From positions 1 to 45,078 of the forward strand of contig CAKZTD010000265.1 of the NCBI GenBank assembly GCA_937921595.1: DNA of 45,078 bases. The letters are read 5' to 3'. Positions 19,293-24,589 of this stretch are shown piece by piece. A program made the translations under genes and the position numbers. The notes beneath the pieces are model-generated. The model did not search any database, was not told the origin of the DNA, and saw nothing but the letters and a program-made list of their open reading frames with translations. Origin of the DNA: an uncultured Saprospiraceae bacterium (GTDB lineage: Bacteria > Bacteroidota > Bacteroidia > Chitinophagales > Saprospiraceae). Each line of letters opens with the position of its first letter. The stretch's first letter is position 1.

Positions 19293-19325
19293 TTTGCATC
19301 ATAAGTCGATTTTAGTGTAAATTTG
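19293..19325 (+). promoter_or_regulatory. Bacteroidota-type promoter for the tRNA-like pair
   Basis: TTTG at 19293-19296 is followed after 21 bases by TAAATTTG at 19318-19325, matching the TTG / TAnnTTTG promoter known for this phylum. It lies about 125 bases upstream of the first tRNA-like gene, with no gene between, so the pair has its own start site. Confidence 0.6.
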
Positions 19326-19448: not shown

Positions 19449-19562
19449 TGTAAGATGACGAAATAGGCAGCCGTGCCCTCCTGTCTCGGGGGTGGAGAAA
19501 CGGGGATAAAATCTGGCAACAGATCTAACCCCTCCTTGGAGGTTCGAATCCTTCTCTTACAG
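19449..19562 (+). tRNA. tRNA-like gene, copy 1, with 45-nt variable region (anticodon position GUC)
   Basis: The sequence folds as a cloverleaf. The acceptor stem is TGTAAGA / TCTTACA (7 bp, 19449-19455 with 19555-19561). T8 and G9 follow, then a D stem ACG/CGT with loop AAATAGGCAGC (G18 G19 present). The anticodon stem is CCCTC/GGGGG with loop CTGTCTC, giving anticodon position GTC. The variable region 19493-19537 is 45 nt. The T arm is GGAGG-TTCGAAT-CCTTC. The next base, a discriminator, is G; CCA is not encoded. The long arm folds again: GGA..GGGG pairs with CCCCTCC, capped by ATCTG-GCAA-CAGAT, a GNRA loop. The D arm resembles tRNA-Leu, but a GUC (Asp) anticodon on a long-arm tRNA is not normal, so I do not assign an amino acid. 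It could be a specialised, regulatory or decayed tRNA. Confidence 0.75.
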
Positions 19563-19567
19563 CGAAA

Positions 19568-19647
19568 GATTTAGAAATTAGAAATACGGAAATATCATTC
19601 TTTAACGAAATTCGGGTGACGTTTTAAAATTTCAAAATTTCTAAATC
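19568..19647 (+). repeat. Inverted repeat bounding the spacer between the two tRNA-like genes
   Basis: A perfect 12-nt inverted repeat (GATTTAGAAATT at 19568-19579 and its complement at 19636-19647) encloses the spacer. A looser inverted repeat of similar sequence lies in the leader (about 19379-19440). In the RNA these would fold back and could mark cutting sites that release the two units. Confidence 0.55.
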
Positions 19648-19660
19648 AAAATTGAAAAAT

Positions 19661-19774
19661 TGTGAGATGACGAAATAGGCAGCCGTGCCCTCCTGTCTCG
19701 GGGGTGGAGAAATGGGGATAAAATTTGGCAACAGATCTAACCCCTCCTTGGAGGTTCGAATCCTTCTCTTACAG
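19661..19774 (+). tRNA. tRNA-like gene, copy 2, with 45-nt variable region
   Basis: This copy has the same 114-nt length as copy 1 and differs at three places, all transitions that leave the fold intact. The acceptor strand is TGTGAGA rather than TGTAAGA, giving a G-T pair. The variable-arm bulge has T for C at 19713. The top stem has ATTTG for ATCTG, giving a T-G pair with CAGAT. Anticodon loop, D arm and T arm are identical. A terminator follows 23 bases on. Retention of the fold in a tandem copy argues for a working RNA and against decay. Confidence 0.75.
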
Positions 19775-19797
19775 CAAAGCCACAATTGGTGGCATTA

Positions 19798-19832
19798 AAA
19801 AAGGTCTTTGGATTTGTTCCAGAGACCTTTTT
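19798..19832 (+). terminator. Terminator of the tRNA-like pair, also facing the helical-repeat gene
   Basis: A 15-bp stem with one G-T pair (AAAAAGGTCTTTGGA and TCCAGAGACCTTTTT) closes a 5-nt loop and is followed by a T-rich run. It can end the rightward RNA, and in the other direction the minus-strand gene whose stop is at 19837. Confidence 0.85.
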
Positions 19833-19836
19833 GTTT

Positions 19837-21357
19837 TTAGTGGAATTTATTGTGCAGCGAGTCTAGTACAAATTCCCAGAGCATTTCGTAAGGGATGATT
19901 TCTATCTCATCATCTTGCCCCGAAATTTCAAGAGGGGTGTTTTTTAATTGGTCATAATATTTTTCTGTCTTACGGATAACGGCTTGCTTGTGGAAGTTTG
20001 CTTTTGGTAATTGTACCAGCATTTTGATAAAACAATTACTTCTAAAATTTTCATCATTTCGTAAATAACGATAGGTGTATTGGTTGATCGCCTCGACACG
20101 GTCGATCACTGCAGCATATTTTTTTTGTTGTAATAAAAATAAAATATGAATAATTAATACCGGAATATTCATTCCTCTTTTGTCTTTGGAAAATACAGGA
20201 AGCTCGTTTAAGAATTTATTGATTCGGAATTTTTTGAGTTTATCTTCAGTAGTTACTTTGATTTCTCCATTTGAAATAAGGTAGTTAATATAAGCTTCAA
20301 ATGTTTTCCATCTTTCGGTAGACTTAGCATAAAGGCGGTCAAAGTTTTGATGTTGAGAAACTTTTAAATACAAATTAAGAGCCTCTTTGAATTTTTGAGT
20401 GTGTATGCAAAGTATTAGATACATGCTATTTGCTTGGAACCAATTTGGAGAACCTTCAGGCATATCTCTCAGACCTTTTTCAGCGATGGTCTCTCCCTTT
20501 TCGAATTGTTTGAGTTGGATATGGCAAGCTAGAATTTTAATGAGAAAAATATGGATTGCGACTTTTGAGGCTTGATTGTTATTTGACTCAAAAAAGTGAA
20601 TCGCTTTCTCGGATTCTTTGATGATGTTTTTATAATCATTTATAACTTGATATTGATAAATGTAAACCATCCTCGCATAAAGATTCAGTCGATAAGAATG
20701 TAAGCCCTTTGTTTTTTTCTTTAAATTATTTGAGTATTTTTTAAATAGTTCGAATAGTTCAGTTTTTGACAATTTTGAAATACCAAAATTACTCGTCATA
20801 ATTGAATAATATTCTTCAGCCAATAATTCCGCAGCTAATATTTTTTCATGTTTTTTAATATGGGTATTAATTTCTATATATTTTTTTTCATTTTTATCCC
20901 ATAAGGCATAATGAATCCTAAGCATTCTTAAGATGTCTAAAGCAAGTTGGCTGAATTCAAATCGTTCGGCCTTTTTTAAGATTTTTTCTCCAATGGCAAT
21001 TGCAGTAGATCGAGCTCCTTTTCCGATCAGTATTTTTACGGCAGCCCAGTCTTTATAAGAGGAATAATAAGCGAGTTGAATATCATTATGGGATGATTTA
21101 TTGATGTCAATAAAAAAGGCAGTATTAATCAATCTTTGCTGCAGTCTTGATTTGAGTTTAGCATATTTTGTTATACTTGTTTTTGTGTTTTGATATAAAG
21201 CCAAGCATGCCTCTTCGTCGGTAGAAAATTGTCCTGTTTGAATACCTTCATACAGTTTTTGAAGCTTAGTATTGGAAAAACCAGTACCGTCAATGACGTT
21301 AAGCCCCTTAGTTTTATGCCGAGTAATAAGTCCTGCTAATTCTTTTAATTGGTCCAT
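19837..21357 (-). CDS. Uncharacterised helical-repeat (TPR-like) cytoplasmic protein
   Basis: This is a 506-residue protein with no signal peptide or membrane segment. It is almost all alpha-helical, with TPR-like spacing of paired helices in the middle (for instance QLKQFEKGETIAEKGLRDMP, then AYINYLISNGEIKV later). The N-terminus (MDQLKELAGLITRH) and C-terminus (IIPYEMLWEFVLDSL) look like conserved ends. I do not recognise a family name. A 45-residue ORF starts 220 bases away on the other strand. It may be a scaffold or regulator, but nothing in the sequence gives a reaction. The gene stands alone after the tRNA-like pair, and its stop codon abuts their terminator. Confidence 0.7.
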   Translation of the reverse strand: MDQLKELAGLITRHKTKGLNVIDGTGFSNTKLQKLYEGIQTGQFSTDEEACLALYQNTKTSITKYAKLKSRLQQRLINTAFFIDINKSSHNDIQLAYYSSYKDWAAVKILIGKGARSTAIAIGEKILKKAERFEFSQLALDILRMLRIHYALWDKNEKKYIEINTHIKKHEKILAAELLAEEYYSIMTSNFGISKLSKTELFELFKKYSNNLKKKTKGLHSYRLNLYARMVYIYQYQVINDYKNIIKESEKAIHFFESNNNQASKVAIHIFLIKILACHIQLKQFEKGETIAEKGLRDMPEGSPNWFQANSMYLILCIHTQKFKEALNLYLKVSQHQNFDRLYAKSTERWKTFEAYINYLISNGEIKVTTEDKLKKFRINKFLNELPVFSKDKRGMNIPVLIIHILFLLQQKKYAAVIDRVEAINQYTYRYLRNDENFRSNCFIKMLVQLPKANFHKQAVIRKTEKYYDQLKNTPLEISGQDDEIEIIPYEMLWEFVLDSLHNKFH

Positions 21358-22921: not shown

Positions 22922-24589
22922 ATGAAACAGCTAATGAGCCTCGTAGTGGTGGTAATGATGATCGGTCTTCCACAAAATTTAATTGCACAATGTCTTAGTG
23001 GTTCCTGTTGGGATGGAAAAGGTGTATACCTTTATCCAAGTGGAGCCAAGTATGTCGGTAAATTTCGCAATGGAAAAATCCACGGGAAAGGGACACTTCA
23101 TTTTAGTAATGGAAACAAATACTCTGGTGAATGGGTCAACCAATATCGTGAAGGTAGAGGAAAACTTGAATTTAAAAATGGAGATGTTTATTCCGGAGAT
23201 TTTAAATCTGGAAAAATGAAAGGGACAGGGACGATGGTTTTTGTGAAAGGGGATAAATATGTGGGCAGTTGGTCAGACGATTTGCAGAATGGAAAAGGCA
23301 AATATTATTATGCGGATGGTGATCGATATGAAGGAGATTTTCGAAAAGGAAAATTGGAAGGAACAGGAACTATGTTTTATGGGGACGGATCGAAGTTTAG
23401 TGGAACATGGAAGGACAATAAGAAAAATGGAAAAGGTACTTTTTATAAAATCGATGGATCGGCTGTAGATGGAAAATGGGCTTCTGGAAAATTTCAAGGT
23501 AAAGAAAATAACGTAGCTCAAAGTAATGAATTCGAAAATCAGGAATCAATAGTTGTGGCGAGTAGCGATGAGTTTAAAAATTGTAACAACAATTTTTGTG
23601 ATAATGAAAGGGGAATGTTTAAATACGGAGACGGTTCTCAATGGATCGGAGATTTTGAAGATGGAATTCCGGAAGGTGCAGGAACTTGTTACTACTCAAA
23701 TGGGGATAAGTATGTTGGTAGTTGGAAAAAACATGCACCGCATGGTGACGGAATTATGTATTATAAAAATGGTCGAGTGATTGGAGCGGTTTGGGATTAT
23801 GGAAAACCAGTGGATGATTTGGAAGAACCAGATGACATCATTGCTCAAGAGCACATTTCCGTTGATCGAGATGATGAGATAAAAGTTTGGGCAGTAGTGG
23901 TAGGAGTCGCTCGTTATGTTCACATGCCGGTTTTAAAATATACCGATGATGATGCTTACCATATTTATGCATTTCTAAAAAGCCCAGAAGGTGGAGCCTT
24001 ACCAGATGATCAAATTCGAGTTTTAATCGATGAAGATGCGACACGTACAAATATCATGAGTGCCATGCGACAAACATTTTTAAAAGCAGATGAAAACGAT
24101 GTCGTATTATTATACTTCTCAGGTCATGGCTTGCAAGGTTCTTTTTTACCTGTAGATTTTGATGGATATAATAATAAGTTGTTGCATGATGAAGTGCAAA
24201 GTCTTTTCAGCGAGTCTAAAGCAAAACATAAAATCTGTTTCGCCGATGCTTGCCACTCAGGAACCCTTACGGCAATGAAAACTCCAGGAAATATCTTGAC
24301 CAATTATTATGATGCCTTCTCTGGTTCACGAGGAGGAACAGCTCTGCTATTGTCTTCAAAAGGCGATGAATTTTCTTTAGAAGATCAAGGATTACGTCAA
24401 GGTATTTATAGTCACTTTTTGATTCGTGGATTGAAAGGCGAAGCAGATAAAAATAAAAATAAAATCGTTACAATTCAGGAGCTGTTTGATTTTGTTTCTA
24501 AAAAAGTGACGACCTACACGGCGAATGTTCAGACGCCAACGATCACTGGAAATTATGATGAAAATATGCCCGTGGCGGCAGTGAGATAA
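22922..24589 (+). CDS. Exported MORN-repeat protein with C-terminal caspase-like (C14) protease
   Basis: This is a 555-residue protein with a signal peptide (MSLVVVVMMIGLPQNLIAQ). Residues about 27-290 hold some eight MORN repeats of the GxxYxGxWxxGxxxGxGxxxxxxG type, interrupted near 195-230 by a Cys/Asn-rich stretch. MORN modules bind lipid or protein partners. Residues about 318-555 are a caspase fold: VWAVVVGVARYVHMPVLKYT, the catalytic LYFSGHG (His402) and the catalytic FADACHSGTL (Cys444), followed by LLLSSKGDEFSLEDQG and GIYSHFLIRGLKGEAD. The dyad is intact, so it should be an active cysteine protease, probably with Arg/Lys or Asp specificity that cannot be read off. It shares the caspase core with the TPR-caspases further right but not their middle region. 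Confidence 0.88.
   Translation: MKQLMSLVVVVMMIGLPQNLIAQCLSGSCWDGKGVYLYPSGAKYVGKFRNGKIHGKGTLHFSNGNKYSGEWVNQYREGRGKLEFKNGDVYSGDFKSGKMKGTGTMVFVKGDKYVGSWSDDLQNGKGKYYYADGDRYEGDFRKGKLEGTGTMFYGDGSKFSGTWKDNKKNGKGTFYKIDGSAVDGKWASGKFQGKENNVAQSNEFENQESIVVASSDEFKNCNNNFCDNERGMFKYGDGSQWIGDFEDGIPEGAGTCYYSNGDKYVGSWKKHAPHGDGIMYYKNGRVIGAVWDYGKPVDDLEEPDDIIAQEHISVDRDDEIKVWAVVVGVARYVHMPVLKYTDDDAYHIYAFLKSPEGGALPDDQIRVLIDEDATRTNIMSAMRQTFLKADENDVVLLYFSGHGLQGSFLPVDFDGYNNKLLHDEVQSLFSESKAKHKICFADACHSGTLTAMKTPGNILTNYYDAFSGSRGGTALLLSSKGDEFSLEDQGLRQGIYSHFLIRGLKGEADKNKNKIVTIQELFDFVSKKVTTYTANVQTPTITGNYDENMPVAAVR

Follow-up and report, generated by a model that had tools for sequence, protein, structure and literature searches.

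A family of tRNA-like RNAs in Bacteroidota and viral contigs, and a possible role as carrier for asparagine synthesis

A tandem pair of tRNA-like units with a giant variable arm was found in a stretch of 45,078 nucleotides from an uncultured Saprospiraceae bacterium (GenBank assembly GCA_937921595.1, contig CAKZTD010000265.1; hereafter the window). The pair belongs to what is a real RNA family, seemingly undescribed. From the positions that the family conserves and the genes with which it occurs, we propose, with a probability of roughly 0.6, that it is a dedicated non-decoding tRNA on which aspartyl-tRNA synthetase (AspRS) and GatCAB would make asparagine. It is almost surely not an ordinary decoding tRNA.

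Standard tools pass over this RNA. ARAGORN reports no tRNA in the window, and Rfam yields no match there at gathering score; a laxer Rfam search of the window gave weak matches only, the best at 21.6 bits where the gathering score is 68. The Rfam tRNA model has 56 matches in the same genome, none of them on this contig. No paper on this RNA was found by title or abstract opening in the open-access literature.

The array and its surroundings

The features of the array, all on the + strand, are as follows.

19293..19296, +, Bacteroidota-type -33 promoter element TTTG (as TTTGCA), read in the sequence
19318..19325, +, -7 element TAAATTTG, 21 nt past the -33 element, read in the sequence
19449..19563, +, tRNA-like unit 1 (T1 to C74; G73 at 19562), covariance model match of 128.2 bits
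19481..19487, +, anticodon-type loop CTGTCTC of unit 1 (G34 U35 C36 at 19483-19485, C38 at 19487), from reading and conservation
19494..19535, +, giant variable arm of unit 1, covarying helices 4, 5 and 6
19661..19775, +, tRNA-like unit 2 (T1 to C74; G73 at 19774), covariance model match of 125.9 bits
19693..19699, +, anticodon-type loop CTGTCTC of unit 2, read in the sequence
19706..19747, +, giant variable arm of unit 2, from unit alignment and covariation
19798..19832, +, intrinsic terminator past the array

Each unit is 115 nt long, C74 included. Both belong to the covariance model's own alignment.

The initial annotation had given the array a promoter and a terminator of its own. The terminator stands, and the promoter stands only as a Bacteroidota-type pair: a scan for E. 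coli-type promoters found no plus-strand site 5' of unit 1 and two sites between the units. The number of such sites is about the same as in shuffles. We take TAAATTTG to be a Bacteroidota-type -7 element. Of 96 distinct intergenic regions of relatives, 48 contain TTTGCA, where shuffled sequence would give 4.4, and the relatives show, by eye, the same TTTG / TAAATTTG layout upstream.

The neighbours shared inside the window's family (GH113, DUF819, lipoprotein signal peptidase and MORN-caspase) are read as inherited gene order. The MORN-repeat caspase-like protein lies at 22922-24589 of the window and has relatives near the array in eight other same-family regions. Just past the array, on the opposite strand, 19837-21357 encodes a 506-aa protein that has no Pfam match; its relatives lie near arrays in five other regions.

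A conserved fold

Both units have a 7-bp acceptor stem (UGURAGA/UCUUACA), U8, a 3-bp D stem, G18G19, A21, the 7-nt loop CUGUCUC and a T arm with UUCGAAU, and their variable region of about 45 nt forms its own stem with a GCAA cap. In unit 1 the arm is made up of a basal helix, a 3-bp helix, an internal loop GATAAA (19505-19510) / CTAA (19525-19528) and the GCAA-loop hairpin. The cloverleaf with a structured variable arm of about 45 nt that was first described at this locus is confirmed, since its features can be read in both units and its helices covary. The copies differ at three places, namely one acceptor pair, one variable-arm pair and one unpaired base, and both pair differences are changes to G-U. 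The earlier remark that the differences preserve pairing or fall in a bulge agrees with this.

Selection on the fold, also claimed at the outset, is borne out by strong compensatory changes, though the folding energy of the single units does not reach significance (z -1.17 and -0.32) and the D stem is absent from the fold of lowest energy. A covariance search, proposed with that claim as its check, found homologues with paired changes in Bacteroidota. When 42 units were aligned independently with MAFFT, 94.4% of the cells pair, 17 of the 32 pairs change on both sides and covariation amounts to 0.359, against at most 0.143 in slid controls. On 100 distinct rows (98 true units and two ordinary tRNAs) the corresponding values are 95.1%, 27 of 32 and 0.479, against at most 0.127 when slid; this alignment was fitted to the covariance model and so leans towards it. 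All seven helices, those of the variable arm among them, are supported on the 100 rows, and the 42-unit alignment agrees. Pair counts from a 150-row alignment were left aside because 72 of its rows match more weakly, are cut or are ordinary tRNAs. The comparative evidence for a conserved RNA fold is decisive.

Within the arm, the internal loop RAUAAA/CUAA is conserved and the terminal hairpin is variable. The former resembles the UAA/GAN motif. Long forms additionally carry GGGUUGACCAC. Though a common feature of the family, the giant arm is dispensable. Genome G268 has a 77-nt form that does without it (L425, G268:C23:55337-55413), with the loop CTATCTC and a terminator-like hairpin 3' of it. 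In its genus mates G360 and G580 the forms are 116 nt long, and the AsnC-side region of G360 resembles that of Hymenobacter perfusus. Forms of 93-94 nt occur in three viral contigs (L301:10609-10702, L319:1193-1286 and L264:7107-7199); they have A1-U72 in place of U1-A72, and ARAGORN calls them tRNA-Asp. In three unit sets, only 14 of 104, 11 of 97 and 4 of 78 units have an encoded CCA.

Distribution in Bacteroidota

A DNA search matched 102 of the 199 genomes of the window's family. The covariance model, built from 42 units, matches something in 185 of these 199 genomes and in 391 of the 395 genomes of a phylum sample since class II tRNAs of the ordinary kind, some 85 nt long, are picked up as well, with scores reaching about 63 bits; ordinary tRNA-Leu is among these background matches. 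True units are longer and mostly reach at least 88 bits, a few divergent ones lying at about 60-75 bits. In the window's family, 98 of 199 genomes have matches at E <=1e-20. Together with G123, which has pieces at two contig ends, and with G031, G061 and G134, found true on inspection, this brings the family to at least 102 of 199. The phylum sample of 395 holds 39 genomes with a match of at least 88 bits, whose best E is 1.5e-20 or less; G287 (long form) and G268 (77-nt form), which are also true members, raise the count to 41 of 395. Multi-copy arrays occur in the family.

A pattern scan of named hosts returned at least 120 stretches. Among the matches listed, 77 of the first 80 and 39 of the other 40 hold up against the covariance model; the three stretches of the first 80 that do not are from Streptomyces, Jidongwangia and Propionibacteriaceae. 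The confirmed hosts among these matches include Chitinophaga, Hymenobacter, Dyadobacter, Spirosoma, Pedobacter, Algoriphagus, Cyclobacterium and Neolewinella, and also one Ignavibacteriales MAG. A search of plasmids gave no match.

Conserved positions

The covariance model, with no loop pattern imposed, found 98 distinct host units, in 97 of which the loop could be parsed. U1-A72, G2-C71, G73 and C74 are each present in all 98. U35, C36 and C38 are each present in all 97 units with a parsed loop, as is GGNAG (no 20a), and G34 is present in 94 of them. Uracil 33 and a purine at 37, which a decoding tRNA would be expected to keep, are found in only 81 and 3 of the 97 respectively, position 37 being U in 88, C in 6 and G in 3.

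Named-host and viral units were found by a pattern that fixes the last loop bases, so only the counts for 1-72, 73, 74, 33 and 34 are informative there; one named-host and three viral units were left out as cut or misaligned. Among the matches listed, U1-A72 is present in 142 of 143 named-host and 91 of 95 viral units, the other four viral units having A1-U72. Likewise among the matches listed, G34 is present in 124 of 143 named-host and all 95 viral units; one of the 19 named-host exceptions is a parsing slip.

According to the account in PMC9976931, the strong aspartate determinants are five (G73, G34, U35, C36 and C38), U1-A72 permits amidation of Asp-tRNA-Asn, and G1-C72, conserved in bacterial tRNA-Asp, blocks it there together with U20a. 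The host units carry both the aspartate determinants and the GatCAB signature (U1-A72, no U20a). With these determinants fixed and positions 33 and 37 drifting, it appears that the marks of AspRS and GatCAB alike are retained in the RNA while the needs of decoding are relaxed. Because its U1-A72 departs from the G1-C72 of tRNA-Asp, charging may be weaker. The two distinct tRNA-Asn genes read in the window's own assembly, among 30 of its 56 tRNA places, have G1-C72, and by the same 1-72 rule their products would be no substrate for GatCAB.

The initial annotation had regarded the GUC anticodon as out of place in a tRNA with a long arm. GUC is indeed present, and in most units, but it reads as an AspRS recognition element and is not simply misplaced.

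Co-occurrence with GatB and asparagine synthetase B

The distributions of GatB and asparagine synthetase B (AsnB) were predicted before searching 41 genomes that have the RNA and 39 that do not: GatB was expected to go with the RNA and AsnB to be missing where the RNA occurs, and both expectations held. The absence of the RNA is defined by filtered searches; nine of the 28 RNA-negative genomes of the window's own family were searched more deeply, and no RNA was found in them. GatB (GatB_N) is present in all 41 RNA-positive genomes and in 1 of 28 same-class RNA-negative genomes (G238). It is also present in all 11 RNA-negative genomes of other classes, which indicates that GatB does not need the RNA.

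E. coli-type AsnB shows the opposite pattern, with 0 of 41 RNA-positive against 16 of 39 RNA-negative genomes; the genomes share ancestry, and Fisher values for either gene thus overstate their independence. Inside the window's family the AsnB counts are 0 of 22 against 9 of 28, and elsewhere 0 of 19 against 7 of 11. Of the 16 AsnB matches, 12 score 841-957 bits, three 502-505 and one (G073) 494.5, which was counted though it is just under the curated cut-off of 499 bits. If only matches of at least 841 bits are taken, the RNA-negative counts become 5 of 28 in the window's family and 7 of 11 elsewhere. AsnB-like paralogues of at most 238 bits are present in RNA-positive genomes and were left out of the AsnB counts.

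Three genomes (G200, G318 and G552) retain the AsnC orthologue and possess AsnB, and neither the RNA nor GatB was detected in them, as if one asparagine route had replaced the other. It must be noted that 23 of the 39 RNA-negative genomes are also without E. coli-type AsnB. For G205, regular expressions for AsnRS and AspRS and an AsnA query gave no match in 1.2 of 2.85 Mb, which has no bearing on the whole genome. Some Bacteroidetes are named in PMC4206432 among genera that have GatCAB and AsnRS and no asparagine synthetase, and their tRNA-Asn has U1-A72. Given that pair, the ordinary tRNA-Asn route described there may serve some hosts.

The AsnC-type neighbour

Neighbouring genes were clustered within 8 kb of 61 regions. 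Outside the window's family, 27 of 31 regions have an AsnC-type gene (Lrp/AsnC) that lies divergently, 122-214 nt upstream of the RNA; inside it, none of 30 does. The same divergent arrangement is seen in 97 of 176 host loci, at 121-252 nt (median 155); some of these loci overlap and some end short upstream. An AsnC orthologue (at least 155 bits) is encoded by all 41 RNA-positive genomes against 3 of 39 RNA-negative ones, and that of the window's own genome is on another contig. In E. coli, AsnC controls asnA.

At loci L412, L415 and L416 no RNA was found beside AsnC, upstream of which there is instead a hairpin and a shared AACCAATTATAA stretch. At L136, L142, L174 and L193 (Algoriphagus, Cyclobacterium, Echinicola) the upstream stretch examined shows no AsnC, and two units lie about 0.4-3.5 kb apart.

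Viral contigs and a drifting palindrome

A scan of viral contigs, the virus label being that of IMG/VR, matched at least 120 stretches. Among the matches listed, 78 of the first 80 loci are supported by the covariance model with at least 64 bits, as is L290, which is cut by a contig end, and so are 38 of the other 40 at E <=1e-13. In some of these contigs the RNA sits inside tRNA arrays. Of 27 viral loci given to ARAGORN, picked for hints of nearby tRNAs or for variety, 9 hold at least 14 tRNA/tmRNA genes; an ordinary tRNA-Asp is present in 7 and a tmRNA in 8. In INPHARED, the window query had one partial DNA match (71 of 341 bases, E 5e-5), to a 636-kb uncultured phage, and two viral queries had none. 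The window's own assembly contains a dense phage-like tRNA cluster (contig C33 of G000; L378, L395), in which tRNA-Asp has the loop TTGTCTA.

Most viral long forms (L242-L361) carry a perfect palindrome of 6-12 nt and of changing sequence, directly 3' of GGGUUGACCAC / GACCAC. A palindrome of at least 8 nt is present in 76% of 58 distinct viral units, against 12.5% in shuffles, a count made after the pattern had been seen in those same units. Among 38 further viral units, 12 repeat an earlier sequence and 5 are without GACCAC; 18 of the 21 held-out units tested have such a palindrome, against 13% expected. The host values are 27% of 30 against 7%, 17% of 35 against 10% and, held out, 2 of 25 against 11%. 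The drifting palindrome is mainly a viral trait. Since its middle four bases are also palindromic, pairing between two molecules would fit better than a hairpin, which suggests that it may serve dimerisation of the RNA. We take these palindromes to resemble retroviral dimer-initiation loops.

Proposed function and alternatives

We envisage that the array transcript would be cut like a pre-tRNA and CCA added. AspRS would charge the RNA with aspartate through G34, U35, C36, C38 and G73, as its conserved determinants predict, and GatCAB, to which U1-A72 is acceptable but G1-C72 and U20a are a bar, would then amidate it to Asn-RNA, a step suggested by determinants and co-occurrence alike. After a putative release, the freed asparagine could charge ordinary tRNA-Asn or enter metabolism. 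Asparagine may be kept from Asp codons by the missing U33, the non-purine at 37 and the sheer size of the variable arm. The divergent AsnC-type regulator probably sets the level of the RNA in many hosts, much as E. coli AsnC acts on asnA. Phages may carry it as an auxiliary metabolic RNA, with the palindrome perhaps holding two copies together. To this fuller picture, an RNA carrier that has no other task, replaces asparagine synthetase, is controlled by AsnC, is borne by phages and pairs with itself through the palindrome, perhaps so as to set up a two-RNA transamidosome, we give even odds.

Three options had been raised for the pair at the outset: a non-translational tRNA, a mistranslating tRNA and a regulatory RNA. 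The drift at 33 and 37, the fixed determinants and the GatB/AsnB pattern favour the first; the second is unlikely. A purely regulatory role is improbable to our mind; its likelier form is a decoy that mimics tRNA-Asp or tRNA-Gln and binds AspRS or GatCAB, no asparagine being made. The same conserved determinants and the same link with GatB would be expected of it, and the AsnC neighbour and the multi-copy arrays would suit it as well. Its effect would be to tune AspRS/GatCAB activity or to report amino acid status under AsnC. However, a decoy alone leaves the mutual exclusion with asparagine synthetase B unexplained.

A small regulatory RNA that pairs through the GUCUC loop, or a Y-RNA-like scaffold for a Ro60/TROVE protein, is considerably less credible. 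The loop is strongly conserved, and the GGGUUGACCAC of the long forms is reminiscent of the 3' strand of Y RNAs. Against the scaffold, TROVE is encoded by 5 of 41 RNA-positive and 3 of 39 RNA-negative genomes and not by the window's own genome; for want of a TROVE link in that genome or across the 80, identity as a Y RNA was rejected. Pairing with the AsnC leader, the sole pairing target searched, was rejected too, as GAGAC occurs there in 0 of 96 distinct intergenic regions, and the variable positions fit recognition by AspRS better than pairing.

Least credible of all is a ribosomal tRNA that reads Asp (GAY) codons with aspartate or, once amidated, asparagine: the tRNA core is intact, GUC is present in most units and some viral copies lie inside tRNA arrays, but U33 and purine 37 are not kept, an ordinary tRNA-Asp is already there in 7 of the 27 viral loci scanned and in the phage-like cluster of the own assembly, and a mistranslating tRNA retained over so many genera is implausible.

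Relation to known systems

A precedent for metabolic dedication is the cell-wall tRNA-Gly of Staphylococcus, a non-translational tRNA that serves metabolism outside the ribosome; it differs in amino acid and enzymes and has no giant arm. Bacterial Y RNAs (YrlA) are noncoding RNAs with a tRNA-like module, whereas the present RNA has no TROVE link and ends at the acceptor stem. The resemblance of the D arm to that of tRNA-Leu, pointed out in the initial annotation along with the discriminator G, is seen by eye, and G73 is indeed invariant in the host units; the anticodon loop, acceptor, G73 and arm size set the RNA apart from tRNA-Leu and other class II tRNAs.

A close biochemical parallel is tRNA-dependent asparagine synthesis on tRNA-Asn by ND-AspRS and GatCAB, which, as described in PMC4206432, can serve cells without AsnA/AsnB. 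As in Deinococcus, Thermus and Bdellovibrio, AspRS would charge the RNA and GatCAB, recognising U1-A72, would amidate it, here as judged from sequence. There, the carrier is the decoding tRNA-Asn; here, it would be a separate RNA that has an Asp loop and an outsized variable arm and in which the positions for decoding are degenerate. Allo-tRNAs (Mukai et al. 2017), as presented in PMC7609411, are likewise long-arm, Sec-like tRNA genes with diverse anticodons, GUC among them, and some are unusable for translation in E. coli. In that account, they have 8/4 or 9/3 acceptor/T stems and occur in Clostridia, Proteobacteria and Acidobacteria, whereas the present RNA has 7/5 stems and occurs in Bacteroidota and viral contigs.

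Implications

If the RNA is indeed a carrier for asparagine synthesis, many Bacteroidota would make an amino acid on a purpose-built RNA and not with asparagine synthetase, and the apparent gap in asparagine synthesis of these genomes would be filled. It would be a rare case of an RNA that acts as a metabolic carrier outside translation, and phages would gain a new kind of auxiliary gene, an RNA. Questions about the origin of tRNA and about RNA cofactors would then become testable at the bench with existing E. coli strains.
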